From Natrarchaeobius halalkaliphilus (lineage in GTDB: Archaea; Halobacteriota; Halobacteria; Halobacteriales; Natrialbaceae), in the NCBI RefSeq assembly GCF_003841485.1, contig NZ_REFY01000001.1, positions 124,001-188,000 on the forward strand: 64,000 bases of DNA, in the 5' to 3' direction. This document shows, in pieces, positions 54,808 to 64,000 of this stretch. A program made the translations under genes and the position numbers. Positions within the stretch are counted from its first letter, which is position 1, and the number at the start of each line of letters is the position of its first letter. The notes below the pieces were generated by a model, which saw only the letters and a list, made by a program, of their open reading frames with translations, had not been told where the DNA came from and did not search any database.

Positions 54808-54914
54808 GGGCCCTTAGCTCAGTCTGGTTAGAGCGCTCGGCTCATAACGCGGCCGTACTTGCTGCGGTTGTGTGAGATACCGAGTGGTCGATGGTTCGAA
54901 TCCGTCAGGGCCCA
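54808..54914 (+). tRNA. tRNA-Met (CAU), elongator type, with a 32-nt intron
   Basis: The acceptor stem GGGCCCT pairs with AGGGCCC before discriminator A at 54914. D arm GCTC/GAGC, anticodon stem CTCGG (54836-54840) with CCGAG (54880-54884), T arm GATGG-TTCGAAT-CCGTC. The anticodon CAT is at 54843-54845. The intron is 54847-54878, inserted after position 37. A perfect bulge-helix-bulge supports it: CTCA/TGAG with three-base bulges TAA and ATA, each cut after its second base, extended by eight further pairs. Haloarchaeal elongator tRNA-Met is known to carry an intron here. A foreign-looking region starts just after, so this may be an integration target. Confidence 0.95.
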
Positions 54915-55477
54915 TCCAGAAACTGCACGGTTCTGAGCCAACGGGTTTTCGGGATACAGCGTTTGTACCCCTTATTTTCTGCTTTCGGGTAGTGATTGGC
55001 CCTCGAGTCGTGTTCGGAGTTCATCCAGCTGCTAGACGCGGGTCGCTGTCGTCGTGCCTTCTCTGATAACCGATGTGCCGTGGACAGTTAATCAATTAGT
55101 GGTTGAGACGTGTTCGGACGATTTTTTGCGCATAGTAGAGTTTTGGTCTGTTGAAACCCTTATTGATTTACATATCTAGTCGGTAGTTTGAGTAGATGCA
55201 GACTCTCCCAAAGTCTCGGTTGCTCCGGTTTGTCGAAGAAGCATTTCAGTTAGCGCAACGCAATTCGATACTCCTCGAAGTTCTCGAAACAACGCTACAC
55301 TCTCCATCAACACAGTATAACACCACGCCAAAGGAGTCGGCTGGCAACGAATAGTCGTTGTCTCGGTGAAGACATCAACGATCTCCGTTACGAATAAGCC
55401 GTTTCGGATTGTTCTTCTTCCCGATTCGATTCAGTAGGCCGATAACATTATTGTACCACGTGACTGGTTAGTGGTAT
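54915..55477. other. 563-base region between tRNA-Met and the accessory operon
   Basis: GC content falls sharply after the tRNA. It holds an insertion-sequence remnant (about 55137-55320) and otherwise AT-richer DNA without a credible gene. No integrase gene or second copy of the tRNA 3' end is found up to 64000, so the other border is outside the window. The last 40 bases should contain the operon promoter, but no clear TATA element is visible. Confidence 0.5.
55137..55320 (+). pseudogene. Truncated, frameshifted IS5-type transposase remnant
   Basis: An ATG at 55196 opens MQTLPKSRLLRFVEEAFQLA, the usual start of haloarchaeal IS5-group transposases. About one residue-pair later the frame shifts: the correct continuation RYSSKFSKQRYTLHQH is read in another frame. 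After this the similarity stops, so the element is 3'-truncated. The upstream GGTCTGTTGAAACCCTTAT and GGTAGTTTGAGTAG look like the element's left end. Confidence 0.7.
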
Positions 55478-57505
55478 ATGTCCGACGAGCAAAGCGATGG
55501 GTTCGGAGCAATATCCGTCAAGCCCGTCATCGACTCGTCTACGACGGATTTCATCCAGGACTTCTACGTTCCTATCCTGTCTGAATCGGTAGAGTACAAG
55601 CGGGGTGCTGGCTACTTTACGACAAATTGGCTACAGTCAGCGGCCCGCGGTATTACCGAACTCGCAGAGAACGGTGGGACGGCTAAATGGATCACGAGCC
55701 CGATTCTCGACGAGAATGATTGGGAGGCCATTAAGACCGGTGATAAGGCGAAACGAGATCGTGTGCTACGGTCCTCTCTGAGCGGGACAATAAGTGAACT
55801 CGAGACCGCACTCGATAATGATACACGAAATGCTATCGCTTGGATGATTGCTGATGGGCTCCTCGAACTCAAACTCGCTGTACCCGAGCCTTCGCTGGGC
55901 GGAGATTTCCATGATAAGTTCGGGGTATTTATTGACGGAGAAGGGAATCGGATTGGGTTCCAGAGTTCTCAGAACGACAGCAAGCATGCGATGACCAACT
56001 ACGAGGGGTATCGTGTTGATTGTGACTGGATCTCCGAGAGGGAGTCAACTGCCGTCTCCCGCCATGAACACCGCTTTGATCAGCTTTGGAATGACGAGAA
56101 TGAACATGTTCGAACATACTCAATTCCGGAAAGTATCGAGGAGCAGATCGCAAACACCAGAGACTATGGTTCACGGCCGTACGAGCAACCAGAGCAAGTC
56201 TCTAGTGGCCCTGAAGATTTCTCACTGCGAGAGTACCAGAAGGAAGCCGTTGATGCTTGGTTTGGGAACGATTGCCGCGGGATGTTCCAAATGGCGACCG
56301 GTACCGGAAAGACGTTCACTGCACTGGCAGCACTTGAGCAATACGCGAAATCGGTCGATAAGCCGCTACTGACTGTTATTGCGGTACCTGTTACTCATCT
56401 TGCCTCCCAGTGGGCAGACGAGATGGAGATCTTTGATCTTCCGAAGCCCCACCTGCTGTTCGGTAGCGTCTCGAAGGACTGGAAACAGAACCTCTCGAGG
56501 ATCACGACCAACATCGAATTGGCTACAAAGGACCATGAGATCGTAATTACTACCCACCAGTCCCTTTACAACGATGACTTTCGCGAGATGGTCGAGCGTC
56601 TTCCCGGACCGATCGCGTTCATCGGGGATGAGGTTCATGGGCTAGGCTCCGATGAGCAGCGATTGGGGCTAATCGAAGCTTACGATGCTCGAATCGGTCT
56701 TTCCGCTACCCCCGAACGGTATTATGACGAGGCTGGAAGCCGATATCTCCTGAACTATTTCGATGGTATCATTTTTGAATATCCGCTTGCAGACGCCATC
56801 CCGGAGTACCTGACTCCCTACGAGTACCACCCCATCATCGTAGAGATGACCGAGGATGAGGTCGAGGAATACAAAAAGCAGTCACGGAAGGTCGCTGCTG
56901 TCGCTGCAAGCGAAGAGATCGATGACGAGACGGTAAGCCAGGTCGCATCACAGCGTGCGGACATCGTAAAGAGTGCTGAACGGAAGTACGGGGCCCTTCG
57001 CGAACAGTTGAAACGGATGGATGATCCACACCACCTCTTGGTATATACTAATGACAGCCAAATCTCCGAAGTTCAGTCAATTCTTACCGAGAACGGTATC
57101 ATTCAGCATAAATTCACTAATGAGGAAGATGAAGAAGAGCGAGATCGGCTATTAGACGGCTTTGAGCAAAGAGAGTGGGATGCCTTGGTTGCAATGAAAT
57201 GCCTTGATGAGGGCGTCGACGTTCCTGCTACCAAGCGTGCCATCCTGATGTCAAATAGTGGTAACCCGAAACAGTTCATCCAACGCCGTGGACGGGTGTT
57301 ACGGAAGGCCGAGGGCAAGGACAAATCGGTTATCTTTGACATGTTTGTCGTGCCCACGATGACTCCAGGCGATGACATCCCCGCGGTTGAGAAGAGTATC
57401 CTGGAACGGGAGCTCGACCGTTTCGAAGAATTCGCTGAGAATGCAATAAACAAACATGGGGCTTGGAACACCATTGACCGGGTTCGTCGGGCGTATAAAT
57501 TATAA
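55478..57505 (+). CDS. Phospholipase D-like nuclease fused to superfamily 2 helicase
   Basis: A 675-residue protein. The N-terminal 200 residues are a PLD-type domain with a single HxK motif, H145-x-K147 in FHDKFGVFIDGEGN, followed by FQSSQND; PLD domains in defence systems cut DNA. The helicase part begins at LREYQKEAVDAWF: Walker A MATGTGKT near 272-279, motif II as GDEVHGL, motif III SATPER and motif VI QFIQRRGRVLRK. This is the first gene of a packed plus-strand operon with a DndD-like ATPase and a DNA methylase. Specific system type not recognised. Base composition is less GC-rich than the flanks. Confidence 0.85.
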   Translation: MSDEQSDGFGAISVKPVIDSSTTDFIQDFYVPILSESVEYKRGAGYFTTNWLQSAARGITELAENGGTAKWITSPILDENDWEAIKTGDKAKRDRVLRSSLSGTISELETALDNDTRNAIAWMIADGLLELKLAVPEPSLGGDFHDKFGVFIDGEGNRIGFQSSQNDSKHAMTNYEGYRVDCDWISERESTAVSRHEHRFDQLWNDENEHVRTYSIPESIEEQIANTRDYGSRPYEQPEQVSSGPEDFSLREYQKEAVDAWFGNDCRGMFQMATGTGKTFTALAALEQYAKSVDKPLLTVIAVPVTHLASQWADEMEIFDLPKPHLLFGSVSKDWKQNLSRITTNIELATKDHEIVITTHQSLYNDDFREMVERLPGPIAFIGDEVHGLGSDEQRLGLIEAYDARIGLSATPERYYDEAGSRYLLNYFDGIIFEYPLADAIPEYLTPYEYHPIIVEMTEDEVEEYKKQSRKVAAVAASEEIDDETVSQVASQRADIVKSAERKYGALREQLKRMDDPHHLLVYTNDSQISEVQSILTENGIIQHKFTNEEDEEERDRLLDGFEQREWDALVAMKCLDEGVDVPATKRAILMSNSGNPKQFIQRRGRVLRKAEGKDKSVIFDMFVVPTMTPGDDIPAVEKSILERELDRFEEFAENAINKHGAWNTIDRVRRAYKL

Positions 57506-57520
57506 AGGATAGATGTGTTG

Positions 57521-57733
57521 ATGGCTATAACGATGCAAGAAGATGAGGTGAGCTCACTCATCACAGAGGAAATAGATGGTATAGAAGATGATTCTCTTCA
57601 GTCCTTTATTGAAGCAATTGTTCAGCATGAACGTTCGCATCTAGACAATAAATTTGCGGAGTTTAATGATAAGTACGACGAGTTAGTCAAGAATCATGCC
57701 GACAATCAGTCGCTAGACGACTTTGACTCGTAA
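57521..57733 (+). CDS. Small acidic helical protein (70 aa) of the accessory operon
   Basis: The sequence is mostly helical and charged (SLQSFIEAIVQHERSHLDNK, then FAEFNDKYDELVKNHADNQ). Starts at GTG 57515, ATG 57521 or ATG 57533 are possible; the second is used. Its stop shares a base with the start of the ATPase gene. A subunit or regulator of the neighbouring proteins is likely; nothing specific is recognised. Confidence 0.6.
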   Translation: MAITMQEDEVSSLITEEIDGIEDDSLQSFIEAIVQHERSHLDNKFAEFNDKYDELVKNHADNQSLDDFDS

Positions 57734-59694
57734 TGGATACAATCCAATTCCTATCTATCGAGGGGAGAGATTACAGGCAATATAATGGAGAATTTAAACT
57801 CGATCTGAAAGTATCTGATGACAAGAATGTTAACGTCATCGAAGGGCAGAACGGGGCCGGCAAGTCGAACCTTCTGAACGCTATCACTCTCTGTTTCTAC
57901 GACGATGAGACACACATCGATGACTCAGTCCTTGAGGCTGATCCACTCGTCAATCTGAAACGTCTCGATGATTTGGATCCTGGAGATACTGCAACGGGAT
58001 ACGTAAGTGTGAAGCTCGGGGATGAAAAGCCGGATTATATTTTCACGCGAGAGTTCACCACTGCGAAACAGCCCGATGGTAGCTATTCCGGATCAACCGG
58101 GGATCTCCAACTCAAGCAGCGAATCGGAGAGGACATGCATGACATGGATAACGCGAACGCCCAATTGAACCAGATTCTCCCGACCGGCGTTCACGAATAT
58201 TTCCTATTCGACGGTGAGCAACTCGATGAATTCTTCGAGGACGGGTACTCAGAACGGGTGAAAGAAGGAATCCTTGATGTTTCTCACATCGAACTGCTAA
58301 ACGAGTCTCTCGATCATCTTGAGCAGGTCCAATCTCGGCTCGAGAAACAATCTTCGGAGTTCGAAGGAAACGTTGGTGAGGCCGAGGCAGTGTACAGGGC
58401 TGAAAAGGAGACTCTTCAGGACCTCAAATCGGACCGTGATACTGCTAAAACGGAATTGGAAGAGGCAAGAGAGAGAAGGGACGAGTTGGACAAAGACCTT
58501 CGACAGAGCTCTCAGGAGGATGTCCGCGAGAAGCAGCTCGAACGAGAACGACTTCGGGAGCGACTCGATGACACACAAGAGGATTTGAATGATGCTAAAC
58601 AGAAGGCCGGAAGCGCTCTAGCAACCGCAGGCATCACTGTATACAACGCAGATGCATTACGATTCGGCCTCACTAAGCTCGAGGAACTCGAACAGCAGGG
58701 AGAACTCCCCCCCAAGATTCAGGACTGGTTCATCGACCGGCTGTTGGAACGAGGAAAATGCATCTGCGGAGAGGATCTCGATAACGAGACACGGAAGGAG
58801 AACCTTCAACACCTCCAGAAAGAGGTCGCAGACATCGAAGATGAAAATATCGATGGGAAGATCCGAATACCGGATCTCCTTGACGAAGTGGACTCACAAG
58901 TACAAGACCTCTTAGACGAACGTACACAGGTTGAGGAGCTCCGGGAGAAACGAGGTGAGATACAGGGAGAAATCGATGATATCTCGGCATTCCTCCAACA
59001 GAAAGATACAATCGACGCAGAGGATGCAGCTGCTCTAGAACAGCAACGCGAGGAAGTCAATAAGCGCATCGAGGAGTTGAGCCATAAAATCGGGAAACTC
59101 GAGAGGGAAATCGAAGATCAGCAGGATACTGTTAAAGAAAAGAAAGCCGAGTGGGAGACGGAGATGGAGAAGGAAGACCAGCACCAGATTCTCCTTCGTC
59201 GGGTACAATTCGTAGAAGAGGCGCGCGAGGAAGTCAAGACAATTCGAACCAACATCCTCGACCAGGTTCGGAGCGAAACAGAAGATCGACTTGAAGAGTA
59301 CTTCAACGAGCTCATCTGGAAGGACGAATCCTATGAAATTCATCTCACCGAAAATTACGAGGTTGAAGTGCAGGGACCTACCGCGGAGAAGAAACTCGCC
59401 TCTCTGTCTGCCGGGGAACGTCAAATTTTAGCATTGGCGTTTATGTCTGCGCTCTCGCGAATTAGTGGCTTTAGCGCTCCAATTGTCATCGACACGCCGC
59501 TTGGCCGTATCTCATCAAAACCTCGTAAACGTATTGCAGCACAGCTGCCAGGGTACCTCGAAGGTCGACAGGTGACTTTGATGATGACCGACGAGGAGTA
59601 CACCGATGATGTTGCTGCCCTGCTTGACGGTCATATCGCTAATGAGTATGAACTGCAGTATAATGACGAAACCACTCAGGTGATCCCACAATGA
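57733..59694 (+). CDS. DndD-like SMC/SbcC-type ATPase
   Basis: A 653-residue ABC-type ATPase with head halves separated by a long coiled coil. Walker A is GQNGAGKS at 38-45, then FLFDGEQLDEFF; the hinge zone has a half zinc hook KCICGEDL with C343 and C345; the signature is LSAGERQ at 558-564 and Walker B is IVIDTPLGR near 585-593. The FDGE and IDTPLGR stretches are typical of DndD, an ATPase of DNA phosphorothioation. No dndC, dndE or dndB lies in the window, so it is called DndD-like only. Its stop overlaps the next start. Confidence 0.85.
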   Translation: MDTIQFLSIEGRDYRQYNGEFKLDLKVSDDKNVNVIEGQNGAGKSNLLNAITLCFYDDETHIDDSVLEADPLVNLKRLDDLDPGDTATGYVSVKLGDEKPDYIFTREFTTAKQPDGSYSGSTGDLQLKQRIGEDMHDMDNANAQLNQILPTGVHEYFLFDGEQLDEFFEDGYSERVKEGILDVSHIELLNESLDHLEQVQSRLEKQSSEFEGNVGEAEAVYRAEKETLQDLKSDRDTAKTELEEARERRDELDKDLRQSSQEDVREKQLERERLRERLDDTQEDLNDAKQKAGSALATAGITVYNADALRFGLTKLEELEQQGELPPKIQDWFIDRLLERGKCICGEDLDNETRKENLQHLQKEVADIEDENIDGKIRIPDLLDEVDSQVQDLLDERTQVEELREKRGEIQGEIDDISAFLQQKDTIDAEDAAALEQQREEVNKRIEELSHKIGKLEREIEDQQDTVKEKKAEWETEMEKEDQHQILLRRVQFVEEAREEVKTIRTNILDQVRSETEDRLEEYFNELIWKDESYEIHLTENYEVEVQGPTAEKKLASLSAGERQILALAFMSALSRISGFSAPIVIDTPLGRISSKPRKRIAAQLPGYLEGRQVTLMMTDEEYTDDVAALLDGHIANEYELQYNDETTQVIPQ

Positions 59695-60140
59695 GCGACA
59701 CTCAGCAGCAACAGGAGTTCGAGAAAACAGATCCAAGCCGAGAAATTGGTGTAGATCCGGAGAAGCACCCACTGTATAAAGAGTTAGAGAACAACCCAAA
59801 CTCGCCATTTTACGAAGAGGAACTAGTTGACATCTGGTTATTCACCGTCGGGTACGGACGCCAGCATAGTGAACGTGAACCACTCCCTGGTAATAAAAAG
59901 TGGATGCTCCGGATGACATCGCTCGATGATGACGAGGAGTGGATAGTCAAGTCGATCGCCATCGAAGAGACCGGGACCACAGATGTGCTTCAGGATGGGA
60001 AACAGATATTCACCATCGCTCAAGAGTACGCTAATTCCGGTATTGAGTTGGTACATGAAGAGGTTACAGATACAGACAGTGATTCTATCAGCGAACTGAC
60101 TTCAGATGTCGTCCGCACTCATCGGAGTCAAAACGAATGA
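59691..60140 (+). CDS. Unrecognised 149-aa protein of the accessory operon
   Basis: An acidic, probably globular protein (DIWLFTVGYGRQHSEREPLP, KKWMLRMTSLDDDEEW, ANSGIELVHEEV). The start overlaps the ATPase stop (ATGA), so the two are made together. No domain is recognised. 58 bases separate it from the methylase. Confidence 0.65.
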   Translation: MSDTQQQQEFEKTDPSREIGVDPEKHPLYKELENNPNSPFYEEELVDIWLFTVGYGRQHSEREPLPGNKKWMLRMTSLDDDEEWIVKSIAIEETGTTDVLQDGKQIFTIAQEYANSGIELVHEEVTDTDSDSISELTSDVVRTHRSQNE

Positions 60141-60198
60141 CGGCGATGCGTCCAGTATCCACAGTATTGAATACCCCCAACCGGCCACAGATTAAACA

Positions 60199-61563
60199 AT
60201 GAGTGATGATTCCGCTGGCCTTAATCATGAGCTACTCGGTCAGCAGGGTGTCTCGGGCGAAATAGAGGATGTTCTCGGTAGAATCGTGTCGTGCCTTGGA
60301 AAAGAAGTCACGCTTGGTCAAGAGCAGGATTCGGCCAATGACCAACTTCCTTCTGAGCTAAACATAAGCCCTACAGAAGCGCAGAAGCTGTACGAGAGCC
60401 TGAAGGCCCACTTTCAGGCTCAAAACACCGGTCCTCCTTTCTCTGATGTCAAGGAGGTTCAAGGTGATATCCCGGAAATGGAAGACCGACCCATCGATGT
60501 GGAACGCGCCAACGCTTGCAAGATTCACCCTAGCGATAGCGGTCGCGAGGATGACGGTCACAAATTGGAGTTGGAAGGCAATTCGGTAAACCTCATCGTT
60601 ACCTCACCCCCGTACTGGCAGCTTCGTGACTACGGTGTCGAAAATCAGCTCGGCCAAGAAGATACCCCAGAGAAATACGTCGATGATCTTGTCGATGCAC
60701 TAAACACCTGGGAAGAATTCCTGCACCCGAAAGGGTCAGTCTTCCTCAACATCGGAGATAAGTATCACGAAAAGAGTCAGGTCGGCATTCCGGGGATGTT
60801 CGCAGAAAGAGCTCGACAAGACGGATGGACGGTTCGAAACCATATTATTTGGGCAAAAAAGAATGGCCTCCCCTCCCCAGCGAAAGACCGATTAGTCCCC
60901 CGGCATGAGCACATCTTCCATCTGGTTCGCGACGATGACTACTACTATGATCTCTTTGGCTACTCCAAGGTCTTCGGAAACGGCGCGAATCCGGGCGACG
61001 TCTGGAACATGAGTCACGACCGTAACACCGGTGGTCACCTTGCCCCCTTCCCAAGTGAACTGGTCTTACGTGCCGTGACCTTAGCCTGCCCACCTGCTGT
61101 TTGTCCAAAGTGCGGTGAGCCTCATAGCCGTGAAATCGAGCGGCCGCTGCTGAATCTAAATCAGGATCGGCCACAGGCTAAACGGGCATTAAAGAAGTTC
61201 AAAGAATCCGACCTCACAGAAGAACATCTCAAGGCGATTCGTGCGGTCGGAATTTCCGACGCAGGGAAAGCCAAGGAGATTCAGGAAGAGACAGGCACTA
61301 ACGATGACGAAATCCAGGAACTAGCTGACGAAGCGAAGGAGGTGCTAGGTGGGTATTTCCGTGAATTCACCTTCCCACTCCCGACAACCGTCGGTTGGTC
61401 CGGGTGTGAATGTGAGGTGGACCCGCAGCCTGGAATGGTTTTCGACCCATTTTCTGGCTCCGGGACTACCATCAACACCGCATACTCGCTTGGATATCAG
61501 GCGTGGGGGACCGACCTTGACCGCTCGAATTTCGAGCCAAAATTGGATAACTTTATGGATTGA
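60199..61563 (+). CDS. DNA methyltransferase, TSPPYW type (likely N4-cytosine), beta order
   Basis: A 454-residue SAM-dependent DNA methylase. Motif IV is TSPPYWQLRDYG starting at residue 135, motif I is FDPFSGSGTT near 415-424, so the order IV then I marks the beta class. The SPPYW form is common in N4-cytosine enzymes, although N6-adenine cannot be excluded. The first 110 residues are an added acidic, helical segment. A zinc-like set CPKCGEPH and GCECE flanks a helical insertion in the target-recognition zone. Together with the helicase and DndD-like ATPase it suggests self-marking in a defence module. Confidence 0.9.
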   Translation: MSDDSAGLNHELLGQQGVSGEIEDVLGRIVSCLGKEVTLGQEQDSANDQLPSELNISPTEAQKLYESLKAHFQAQNTGPPFSDVKEVQGDIPEMEDRPIDVERANACKIHPSDSGREDDGHKLELEGNSVNLIVTSPPYWQLRDYGVENQLGQEDTPEKYVDDLVDALNTWEEFLHPKGSVFLNIGDKYHEKSQVGIPGMFAERARQDGWTVRNHIIWAKKNGLPSPAKDRLVPRHEHIFHLVRDDDYYYDLFGYSKVFGNGANPGDVWNMSHDRNTGGHLAPFPSELVLRAVTLACPPAVCPKCGEPHSREIERPLLNLNQDRPQAKRALKKFKESDLTEEHLKAIRAVGISDAGKAKEIQEETGTNDDEIQELADEAKEVLGGYFREFTFPLPTTVGWSGCECEVDPQPGMVFDPFSGSGTTINTAYSLGYQAWGTDLDRSNFEPKLDNFMD

Positions 61564-61565
61564 GT

Positions 61566-62168
61566 ATGACACGATACATCCTTGAAACGACGGTAGTGCA
61601 GAAAGCTATCAGAAGGCTAATAGAGAGCCCAGTCCACCGTATGTTTCCGGGTTATCTATCCCTGAAACAACAGGCTGAAATCCACGGTCGAGACGACAAT
61701 CTTCCCTTCCCGTATAACGAGTTTTTCAACCAATATCTCCGAGTCCCAGGAGGTGACAAACCGTACCTCGTTCCCTTTACCCCATTGGAAAACCCGTCCG
61801 ACGAGAATCTCTGGGTTAGCGACAATGTCCCAGGGACATACGCCCCCTCCTCACTCCGTGCTGACTCCCCTTTTACTAAGGTCGTAAAGGTAGAGGAAGG
61901 TGGACACAACTCCAGATGGAAGCTTCAGCCAGATCACTGGAAGTTAGCCCGACATCATCTCTGCAATGGCCAGACCATTCCAGCCGAATCCCTGGCTGTG
62001 TTCCTGTTCCGTAATTATGCCTTTGAAACTGATGACCCCTCGGCATACACCCTGATCCAGACTTTCGAAGACGAGTTTGGCTATGAGGTCTCTGGATCGC
62101 AGTTTACCACTCTGTATCAAACCGGCGATACGAGTATCAACGCGGACTCATTCGAACGATATGACTGA
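61566..62168 (+). CDS. Unrecognised 200-aa protein of the accessory operon
   Basis: It begins MTRYILETTVVQKAIRRLIE and contains FPYNEFFNQYLRVPGGDKPY and RHHLCNGQTIPAESLAVFLF with a late FEDEFGYEVSGSQFTTLY. A TTG at 61560, overlapping the methylase stop, is an alternative start. It overlaps the next gene by eight bases. The composition is that of a soluble folded protein. It may be the specificity or effector partner of the methylase; this is a guess from position. Confidence 0.65.
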   Translation: MTRYILETTVVQKAIRRLIESPVHRMFPGYLSLKQQAEIHGRDDNLPFPYNEFFNQYLRVPGGDKPYLVPFTPLENPSDENLWVSDNVPGTYAPSSLRADSPFTKVVKVEEGGHNSRWKLQPDHWKLARHHLCNGQTIPAESLAVFLFRNYAFETDDPSAYTLIQTFEDEFGYEVSGSQFTTLYQTGDTSINADSFERYD

Positions 62169-64000
62169 CGAAAAACTTGACCTGTCGGGAACCAACCCGC
62201 ACCGATCGGCAGCACCGGTTCGGCAATTGGATGCGACCGATTTAGACATCGCGACGCCTGCTACGCAGTCAGATGAGGAAACTGATATCTGGCGTGAGCT
62301 TCGCGACGCAATCGACGCTATCTCCACAGACGGTGTCCGAGCCGTAGTAGCAACCGATGACGCAACAATCACGACCTCGATAGACATTCAGGAAGGATCA
62401 TCCCGACCGGTACATGCCATCGAACTTGGTGTCTGGAAGGCGTATTCGGAAACCAGTTCTCCGATAACTCACGTACTAGTTCAGGCGGATGATGATTACA
62501 CGCCCTGTGGTCGGTGCGTGCAGACGGTACTCGACTACTCGAACGACGCTCTCGTTCGTGTCATGGATCCCTCAGGAGAGACATACGATGAGCTCTCTCT
62601 TGATCAGGGATCGCTATTGAGTGTGGGCAGAGGACCAAACGAGGACGGCGACCACCAAGACACCGATAATGATGGTGCTTCCGGAGAAGAAGAATCAGAC
62701 TCGATGCCAATACCCGAGACACCACCGTTTATCGACATCGAGGTAAGTGACGACGTGGGGATAGAGTACGTCAGGCTGAACGCACCGGTGTATCACCTCA
62801 AATACGAAACCTACGACCAGACATTCTGCGGGACGGACTTAACCCACCGTGAAACGGTCAGTAGCACCGAGGCACCGACTCTTTTGGATCCATGTCTGCG
62901 CTGCCATGGTGAAACAAGCCAGCAGACAGTTGAAGAACAGCGCACCGAACTCCGGGCCCAACTCGCCGAGCAACTCAACCCCGTCCGTGCAACCGAGGAA
63001 GATGCAGCGTCATTCGATGATGATGAGCTGGCTGCGATTCTAAAGCACTTGCCCGTTGAGGTGCCAACGGGAGGGGACGATGCGGTTGCACTTCGGAGTC
63101 GACTCTCTCAGGCCATTGTAGATGTCCATGACGATCAGGAGAATCCCTCCACGTTTTCTCGAGAAGAGATGCAGGCTCTTCTAGCTGCTCTTGATGGCGA
63201 GGGTACTATCTCCGATGACCCACATCTACTTGTGCACACCTCCGACGGGCGTGTCGCCCGAGTTGCCCTGTCGCATCTGAGTCTACAACGTCGTGCGGGT
63301 AAAGGAGAGTTGGCGCTCTCACTGTCAGACAGTGAGGTACCTACCGCTACACTTGCTATGAGTCCTCGTGATCAACTATACGTATTCACTAACCTTGGAC
63401 AAGTGCATCAGGCCGATGCATACCAGGTCCCTTCGGTCAGTCGCGGTGGCGAACCATCACCGCTTTCGGAGATCCTCGACCTCAATGAAGACGAGACATT
63501 GCAGGCTGCCTTCACGTGTCGTAATCTCAACTCTCACGATTACGTAATCCTCGGAAGCAGAGACGGATACATTAAGCGTACGAAGACGGCGGACTTCAAA
63601 AACATCCATCGTGGCGGGATTCGAGCAGCTGAGCTAGAGGGGGATGACGTACTGAGAGAAGCCTGCTTGATGAATGACGGCCGGGACCTACTGATGACCA
63701 CACAGTACGGGCGGGCTATTAGATTCGATGGAGGCGACGTTCGGCCGATGGGCCGCGAGGCGCGTGGTGTCAAAGGAATTGAATTAGACGATGGTGATGA
63801 AGTAGTAACAGTCAATGTTGTTAATACCCAGGCCAAGCCTGAAGTTCTCACAGTCACGGAGGAAGGATACGGGAAGCGAACATCTATCACTGACTACCGA
63901 AAGCAAAGCCGAAACGGTCGAGGGCTGCTTGACATTTCAACAGATGATCGAAACGGTCCCGTTGTGGCTGTTGAGATGACTGCCTCTGATGATGAGTTCG
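62161..64000 (+). CDS. Deaminase-fold, zinc domain and gyrase A C-terminal propeller fusion (partial)
   Basis: At least 613 residues, cut by the window end. Residues of about 55-145 match the cytidine-deaminase fold: RPVHAIELG (H85) and TPCGRC (C116, C119) supply the zinc ligands, but the catalytic glutamate position holds I87. Residues of about 180-250 have a CG...CLRC zinc pattern. From about residue 300 come repeated strands of the GyrA C-terminal DNA-wrapping propeller, with a GyrA-box-like QRRAGKG at 376-382 and later blades with SRGG, HRGGIRA, REARGVKG and SRNGRGLL. The tyrosine-bearing catalytic half of GyrA is absent. It is the last visible gene of the operon, joined by an eight-base overlap. 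Confidence 0.85.
   Translation, partial: MTDEKLDLSGTNPHRSAAPVRQLDATDLDIATPATQSDEETDIWRELRDAIDAISTDGVRAVVATDDATITTSIDIQEGSSRPVHAIELGVWKAYSETSSPITHVLVQADDDYTPCGRCVQTVLDYSNDALVRVMDPSGETYDELSLDQGSLLSVGRGPNEDGDHQDTDNDGASGEEESDSMPIPETPPFIDIEVSDDVGIEYVRLNAPVYHLKYETYDQTFCGTDLTHRETVSSTEAPTLLDPCLRCHGETSQQTVEEQRTELRAQLAEQLNPVRATEEDAASFDDDELAAILKHLPVEVPTGGDDAVALRSRLSQAIVDVHDDQENPSTFSREEMQALLAALDGEGTISDDPHLLVHTSDGRVARVALSHLSLQRRAGKGELALSLSDSEVPTATLAMSPRDQLYVFTNLGQVHQADAYQVPSVSRGGEPSPLSEILDLNEDETLQAAFTCRNLNSHDYVILGSRDGYIKRTKTADFKNIHRGGIRAAELEGDDVLREACLMNDGRDLLMTTQYGRAIRFDGGDVRPMGREARGVKGIELDDGDEVVTVNVVNTQAKPEVLTVTEEGYGKRTSITDYRKQSRNGRGLLDISTDDRNGPVVAVEMTASDDEF

Follow-up and report, generated by a model that had tools for sequence, protein, structure and literature searches.

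Seven co-directional and closely packed open reading frames (ORFs; 55478-64140, + strand) lie at the right end of a 64,000-nucleotide (nt) stretch of Natrarchaeobius halalkaliphilus DNA, hereafter the window (bases 124001-188000 of contig C1 of a 3.5-Mb assembly; window coordinates are used throughout, and values above 64000 are past its right edge). Do these genes form a new DNA-modification and defence operon, as an initial annotation had proposed, and what would the last of them contribute to it? Our analysis supported a defence operon that includes the last gene; the claim of novelty had to be narrowed, because genes 1 to 4 are the known PbeABCD set and the pairing of such sets with methylases has already been described. 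We put a probability of roughly 0.68 on the reading that the operon is a PbeABCD-type antiviral system with a methylation self-mark, in which genes 5, 6 and 7 make up a separable licensing module. What is new in the operon is confined to genes 6 and 7.

Genes 1 to 4 are recognised by their sequences and positions as pbeABCD, the published archaeal antiviral effector of the CxC-DndE type, and for this reason the core of the operon is not new. PADLOC matched PbeA over residues 11-662 (742 bits) and PbeC (761 bits) and gave no match for gene 2 or gene 4, while the NCBIfam model dnd_restrict_1 scored 430.7 bits with PbeA, under its cut-off of 600. In the alignments the HxK, GTGKT and DEVH motifs of PbeA were intact, and PbeC showed a Walker A motif (GQNGAGKS), a zinc hook (CIC) and the IVIDTP motif, the CxC being kept in all ten aligned PbeC rows. 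BLAST matches to PbeB, which was also aligned, and relatives of PbeD were found in the equivalent position in all 18 other neighbourhoods read from the close-PbeC set (20 genomes, 19 with at least 519 bits plus G362, whose locus is split over two contigs); PbeD also matched dnd_assoc_4 ('DNA phosphorothioation-associated protein 4') with an E value of 8.2e-9 and 35.8 bits, below the cut-off of 74.25. The DndCDEA-PbeABCD locus of Haloterrigena jeotgali A29, likewise from a haloarchaeal host, has these four effector genes with an identical arrangement; its small Pbe proteins have 66 and 152 amino acids (aa), compared with 66 and 149 aa here (PMC6459918). PbeABCD was first found together with phosphorothioation; combined with DndCDEA it blocks virus SNJ1 in a haloarchaeal host with no visible cleavage as described by Xiong et al., and the loss of any single pbe gene impairs protection (PMC6459918). 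PMC10853773 recasts PbeABCD as a CxC ATPase-DndE system and argues that the HKD domain cleaves.

Whereas the A29 locus has phosphorothioation genes, the present one has a methylase and genes 6 and 7. Gene 5 matched PF01555 (E 5e-32) and the PADLOC model MTase_II (386 bits), and its own genome contained no second match to it. The motifs of gene 5 are permuted, TSPPYW preceding FDPFSGSGTT, and TSPPY was ahead of DPFxGSGT in 11 of 11 aligned methylase rows. The permuted order, with (S/T)PPY before the FxGxGT motif, is the rule for cytosine-N4 methylases, and by this motif rule gene 5 probably encodes a cytosine-N4 methylase. No dndC match was detected in the genome of N. halalkaliphilus (98.7% complete) and none in 11 of the 13 genomes with genes 6 and 7, this one included; the remaining two have dndC on a different contig. 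The search was able to detect the gene, because it found dndC in three of 24 genomes; its built-in control gave matches in five of 14 genomes, none above the cut-off. From sequence comparison, the TSPPYW methylase occupies the place of the phosphorothioation genes in this Pbe locus.

DISARM and Dnd, which the initial annotation had named as examples of known modules with this theme, fit less well than PbeABCD/CxC-DndE. DISARM combines a helicase, a PLD domain and a methylase, a theme shared with this operon, and it was rejected because the seven proteins (gene 7 searched up to the window end) gave no Pfam match to DrmB/DUF1998 and the PbeA and PbeC profiles fitted far better; plain Dnd was rejected on the Pbe profile matches and the failure to find dndC. 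The pairing of Pbe with a methylase was already anticipated, because methylase genes lie near 155 of 320 solitary pbeAC copies (PMC6459918) and variants with cytosine methylases are reported for CxC ATPase-DndE systems (PMC10853773). One such arrangement (PMC10853773, Fig. 4A iv) shares with our locus the HKD-SF2 helicase, the small protein, the CxC ATPase, the probable DndE cognate and the permuted N4-type methylase; the main text of that paper contains none of the words 'gyrase', 'propeller' and 'deaminase'. Whether solitary pbe copies pair with methylases is left open in PMC6459918, and the locus described here is a concrete and conserved case of that pairing.

The distribution of genes 6 and 7 was surveyed in 391 haloarchaeal genomes. 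Gene 6 was present in 13 of them, and the profile of the gene 7 deaminase domain scored at least 82.5 bits in the identical 13 genomes and at most 67.3 bits in the other matches listed, the boundary between gene 7 and other cytidine deaminases having been chosen after this gap was visible; the eight lower-scoring matches that were read were cytidine deaminases with an intact HAE motif. As computed from the gene places, genes 6 and 7 were adjacent, with an 8-nt overlap, in all 13 genomes, so the idea that gene 7 belongs to an unrelated plasmid module was discarded. The methylase gene (M) adjoined the pair in all 13, and PbeABCD was in the same co-directional run in 11, the two contigs of G362 being taken as neighbours; the internal gene order was altered in two of these 11 loci. 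The operon is more than a chance arrangement, because its gene set was found again in diverged haloarchaea. All seven genes were also present on a Haloprofundus plasmid and on a contig of Haloarcula amylovorans. Gene 6 was found in two of 72,556 plasmid records, both haloarchaeal, and one narrow peptide pattern found five loci in a wider contig collection, all haloarchaeal; this number is smaller than the 13 genomes of the profile survey, which used a different collection, and it says nothing firm on bacteria. Narrow pattern scans of IMG/VR revealed no virus copies of genes 6 and 7, and phage records, searched with gene 6 only, contained none. In Natronomonas aquatica (G219) a truncated second copy of gene 6 follows the methylase at the contig end (L065:29-286), and contig C64 holds a further piece of gene 6.

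In place of PbeABCD, the two genomes with M, gene 6 and gene 7 and no Pbe (G007 and G220) encode one protein of 715 or 685 aa and another of 247 aa. The locus of G220 belongs, by its place and context, to a Salarchaeum japonicum plasmid, and the 685-aa protein gave a weak GHKL-ATPase match that was under the cut-off. A GHKL-like ATPase, the 247-aa protein, the methylase, gene 6 and a short gene 7 may make up a candidate separate system (L090:5417-11071 and L116:9606-15365). Other Pbe loci (L070-L073) have a 968-979-aa protein and a TSPPY-type methylase (515-547 aa) in place of M, gene 6 and gene 7; by eye, the larger protein starts like a GHKL ATPase in L070 and L073.

Gene 7 had been annotated as a deaminase fold joined to a gyrase propeller. 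The fold was correct, and the catalytic glutamate (Glu) is missing from every copy that we read. PF00383 was above its cut-off for the Halogranum copy and below it for that of the window; the search against PDB profiles matched cytidine deaminase 1ux1 (E 3.6e-11). An AlphaFold2 model of the domain had a mean predicted local distance difference test (pLDDT) score of 72.4, with core blocks mostly at 79-92, and resembled cytidine deaminases (Foldseek E 3.7e-7; VIA Z 14.3, root mean square deviation 2.8, 120 aligned); the nearest relatives by both profile and fold were cytidine and blasticidin deaminases. We aligned 13 copies of gene 7, the starts of several relatives being trimmed to a conserved methionine, with eight housekeeping haloarchaeal cytidine deaminases; G343 and Haloarcula amylovorans are outside this alignment and inside a motif count of 15 copies. 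By alignment the zinc ligands are H85, C116 and C119, and the His and the CxxC were retained in 15 of 15 copies. The HAE motif of the housekeeping enzymes reads H-x-[I/L/V]-E in gene 7, the catalytic Glu column being Ile in the window and I, L or V in all 15 copies, and the N[ILV]ENANYSNS stretch for substrate and nucleoside binding was lost in the 13 aligned copies. Gene 7 thus shares the fold and the H, C, C zinc ligands with the housekeeping enzyme, which keeps the catalytic Glu and the nucleoside-binding stretch, both lost in gene 7. Because the catalytic Glu is absent from every copy read, the first domain of gene 7 is probably a zinc-binding pseudoenzyme.

The remainder of gene 7 is variable. 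In the window, G102 and G219 it is long, with a zinc-knuckle-like stretch (CG...CxxC, by eye) followed by a GyrA C-terminal propeller, and in the other ten of the 13 genomes gene 7 has about 153-164 aa and no propeller. The propeller matched PF03989 (DNA_gyraseA_C) with 155.3 bits, which was the sole gyrase A domain, Pfam giving no match to the N-terminal cleavage domain in gene 7; the protein therefore joins the propeller and GyrA-box of GyrA to a probable pseudo-deaminase and a knuckle-like stretch, and lacks the cleavage-religation domain. Two further proteins, in G079 (a Halorhabdus tiamatea plasmid) and G299, carry the knuckle and the propeller without a deaminase domain, near distant PbeA/PbeC-like genes. 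The GyrA-box, which is QRRAGKG in the window and which gyrase requires to bend and wrap DNA (PMC3510516), was retained in all five of these defence-linked propellers. They formed one clade, separate and fast-evolving, next to haloarchaeal GyrA (support 100/99) and not with four bacterial sequences, and within it the three deaminase-fused propellers were not one clade. Because the branches are long, we used only the joint clade and its place beside haloarchaeal GyrA from this tree.

Gene 6 gave no Pfam match above the cut-off and no NCBIfam or PHROGs match, the best signal below the cut-offs being a 14.8-bit RteC match in one relative. A PDB profile search returned designed Scone proteins (E 0.0011 and 0.0066), and these short partial matches were taken as chance. 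The AlphaFold2 model built from six sequences had a pLDDT of 36.6, and for this reason no fold is claimed. Gene 6 may already carry a name, given that PMC10853773 names an MTaX1 gene beside the methylases in these systems. In the open-access literature that was searched, we found no description of genes 6 and 7 as a pair that travels with the methylase and that combines a probably inactive deaminase with a gyrase propeller present in some copies only.

The pairwise identities of six lineages (15 pairs) suggest two co-evolving modules, PbeA/C/D and methylase-6-7: the distance correlations were 0.90-0.94 among PbeA, PbeC and PbeD, 0.63-0.85 among M, gene 6 and gene 7, and 0.45-0.70 between modules. 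Better evidence for modularity is provided by the two genomes that have M, gene 6 and gene 7 and no Pbe. Virus restriction by the operon would be expected by analogy with the published PbeABCD work, with base methylation by gene 5 and not phosphorothioation as the self-mark. As regards the methylation of N4, what genes 6 and 7 do and how the mark is linked to the effector, we can only infer a scheme. M would methylate a site in the host DNA, probably at cytosine N4, while PbeC and PbeD would scan DNA, and PbeA, with its HKD nuclease and helicase, would act with PbeB on unmarked incoming DNA so that replication is blocked. Genes 6 and 7 would link mark and effector, the inactive deaminase domain with its zinc serving as a binding or sensing domain and not as an enzyme, and the GyrA propeller, where it is fused, adding a DNA-wrapping grip. 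Genes 5, 6 and 7 could then be swapped as a self-marking and licensing module, separable from the Pbe effector. If this is true, a self/non-self system would here employ an inactive deaminase and a wrapping domain captured from gyrase, a novel means of linking a DNA mark to its effector.

Several observations weigh against this reading. Near-copies of one another account for five of the 13 genomes, which reduces the Pbe-linked cases to only about six lineages, and the Haloprofundus plasmid and the Haloarcula contig are likewise near-copies. Genes 6 and 7 are missing from nine of the 20 close-PbeC genomes, so Pbe does not need them; in seven of these nine, the 20 kb that were read include a protein with a weak match to the methylase of gene 5, whereas dndC lies close by in G172 and neither was seen in G014. 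The co-occurrence of the seven genes, which the initial annotation had proposed as a check, is thus upheld for genes 6 and 7 with M beside them, and the genes assort in part; neither outcome named there as refuting the operon, independent assortment of the seven genes or a last gene from an unrelated plasmid module, was borne out. The separation of the two modules is also blurred, because the cross-module correlations between PbeC and gene 7 (0.70) and between PbeC and M (0.63) equal or exceed that between genes 6 and 7 (0.63), and permutation p was also below 0.05 for five of the nine pairs that span the modules. Gene 6 has neither a fold nor a family assignment, which leaves its role to guesswork, and in gene 7 the conserved Glu adjoining the lost one might conceivably still sustain catalysis.

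This last point leads to the view that gene 7 is an active deaminase, working through the shifted Glu (HxxE) on viral DNA or on the nucleotide pool, so that the operon would combine modification with deamination. The whole fold and the three zinc ligands are kept and the Glu one residue on is invariant in 15 of 15 copies; we nevertheless consider the proposal quite unlikely, because the catalytic column holds I, L or V throughout, the nucleoside-binding stretch is gone, and the eight housekeeping enzymes carry the same neighbouring Glu besides the catalytic one (HAEE), which means that it need not be catalytic. It is unlikely, in turn, that M, gene 6 and gene 7 are an independent restriction or epigenetic unit to which PbeABCD is no more than a neighbour in defence islands. 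Such a unit would account for the two of 13 genomes in which the three genes stand without Pbe beside a GHKL-like ATPase, and for the tendency of M-6-7 and A-C-D to co-vary as two blocks, but not readily for the 11 genomes of diverged lineages with Pbe in the same co-directional run, in two of them with a changed order; Pbe elsewhere is also near dnd or methylase genes, both in our own loci and in PMC6459918.

Gene 7 might instead act through its gyrase part, competing with gyrase on replicating viral DNA or serving as a decoy for viral gyrase inhibitors. The retained GyrA-box (needed for bending and wrapping; PMC3510516) and the propeller-only relatives near distant PbeA/PbeC-like genes are in agreement with this. 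It is nevertheless very unlikely, since the propeller is absent from eight of the 11 Pbe-linked copies of gene 7 and from both GHKL-linked ones, and a part that most copies lack cannot be the core function. FdhD has a deaminase fold and a CxxC, and the deaminase-fold domain could on that model be a sulfur-transfer protein for a phosphorothioate system. Pbe effectors can indeed pair with sulfur modification (PMC6459918), and gene 7 has the fold and the CxxC; yet this is the explanation to which we give hardly any credence, because no dndC match was found in the window's own genome nor in ten of the 12 others with genes 6 and 7, the closest relatives are the deaminases named above, and the His is conserved along with the two Cys in a zinc-site pattern.

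Returning to the PbeABCD-type system with a licensing module, one may speculate, as a tentative and in itself improbable refinement, that the dead deaminase pocket of gene 7 reads the exocyclic N4 of cytosine, the group that gene 5 would modify, either in DNA or in free nucleotides released when DNA is broken down. Gene 7 would then license or trigger the Pbe effector, the propeller form reading the mark on wrapped DNA. If so, methylase-6-7 would be a portable self-recognition cassette for at least two unrelated effectors, PbeABCD and the GHKL-ATPase module.

The features of the locus are collected in Table 1. The initial description of the operon was borne out in most of its details. With the longest ORF starts the junction gaps are 9, -1, -4, 58, -4 and -8 nt, so that five of the six junctions overlap or are nearly contiguous; with the conserved internal starts that we read from the alignments (ATG 57533 in gene 2 and ATG 61566 in gene 6) two gaps become 27 and 2 nt. 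The domain calls (PLD-helicase, DndD-like ATPase, TSPPYW methylase, deaminase fold and gyrase propeller) held in profile and fold searches, the guanine plus cytosine fraction is about 0.62 up to 55000, where the operon region starts, and about 0.50 beyond it, and the missing right end was recovered beyond the window, gene 7 running from ATG 62161 to a stop at 64140 (659 aa).

Table 1. Features of the pbe-methylase locus and its left flank, in window coordinates
Feature	Position	Strand	Description
tRNA gene, attachment-like site	54808..54914	+	Rfam RF00005, 57.7 bits
Insertion sequence (IS) remnant	55147..55314	+	includes start of transposase-like gene (ATG near 55196)
Gene 1, pbeA	55478..57505	+	SF2 helicase with a fused PLD/HKD nuclease domain, 675 aa
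Gene 2, pbeB	57533..57733	+	small protein of 66 aa (conserved ATG) or 72 aa (GTG 57515)
Gene 3, pbeC	57733..59694	+	DndD/CxC-type ABC ATPase with CxC zinc hook, 653 aa
Gene 4, pbeD	59691..60140	+	probable DndE-cognate-type protein, 149 aa
Gene 5, M	60199..61563	+	permuted DNA methylase, PF01555
Gene 6	61566..62168	+	conserved protein of about 200 aa; TTG 61560 is an alternative start
Gene 7	62161..64000, on to 64140	+	probable pseudo-cytidine-deaminase / zinc-knuckle-like stretch / GyrA C-terminal propeller fusion, 659 aa
Gene 7, cytidine-deaminase-fold domain	62278..62631	+	residues ~40-157
Gene 7, GyrA C-terminal beta-propeller	63178..64000, ends past window	+	residues ~340-655, PF03989

The operon lies in a defence-rich region at a tRNA gene. 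The tRNA and the IS remnant noted upstream in the initial annotation were both recovered: the former, which appears from its sequence to be an intron-bearing tRNA-Met, was found by Rfam and missed by ARAGORN in bacterial mode, and the latter matches, with 88% identity, the first part of an intact ORF of 273 aa on contig C4 of the same genome, which by eye reads as a transposase. The sequence CCGTCAGGGCCCATCC, which begins at 54902 and runs over the 3' end of the tRNA, occurs again about 34 kb downstream, near 89155, as an exact repeat of 16 nt, compared with a longest repeat of at most 13 nt in 30 Markov-shuffled versions. The downstream repeat is beside a gene that by eye is tyrosine recombinase-like (L003:8034-9047, minus strand), and the region from 54808 to about 89170 (L003:9155-9170) is a putative integrative element of about 34 kb. 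The repeats also enclose McrBC, an Mrr-type nuclease and AbiEi/AbiEii. In two congeners (G312 and G308) the DNA is similar until 55106 and again from about 64720, with different genes in between, and in G159 the similarity ends at the tRNA end. The block that holds the operon thus resembles a unit of cargo that has been exchanged.

Among the neighbouring genes, an McrB-like AAA gene and McrC (PF10117, 124.8 bits) are located just downstream of the operon (L002:6125-9750), and the Mrr-type restriction gene and the AbiEi/AbiEii pair are farther along the same element (L003:70-3024). The corresponding slot of G312 (L138:856-2472) is taken up by one protein of 538 aa, for which Pfam gave no match at E 0.01.

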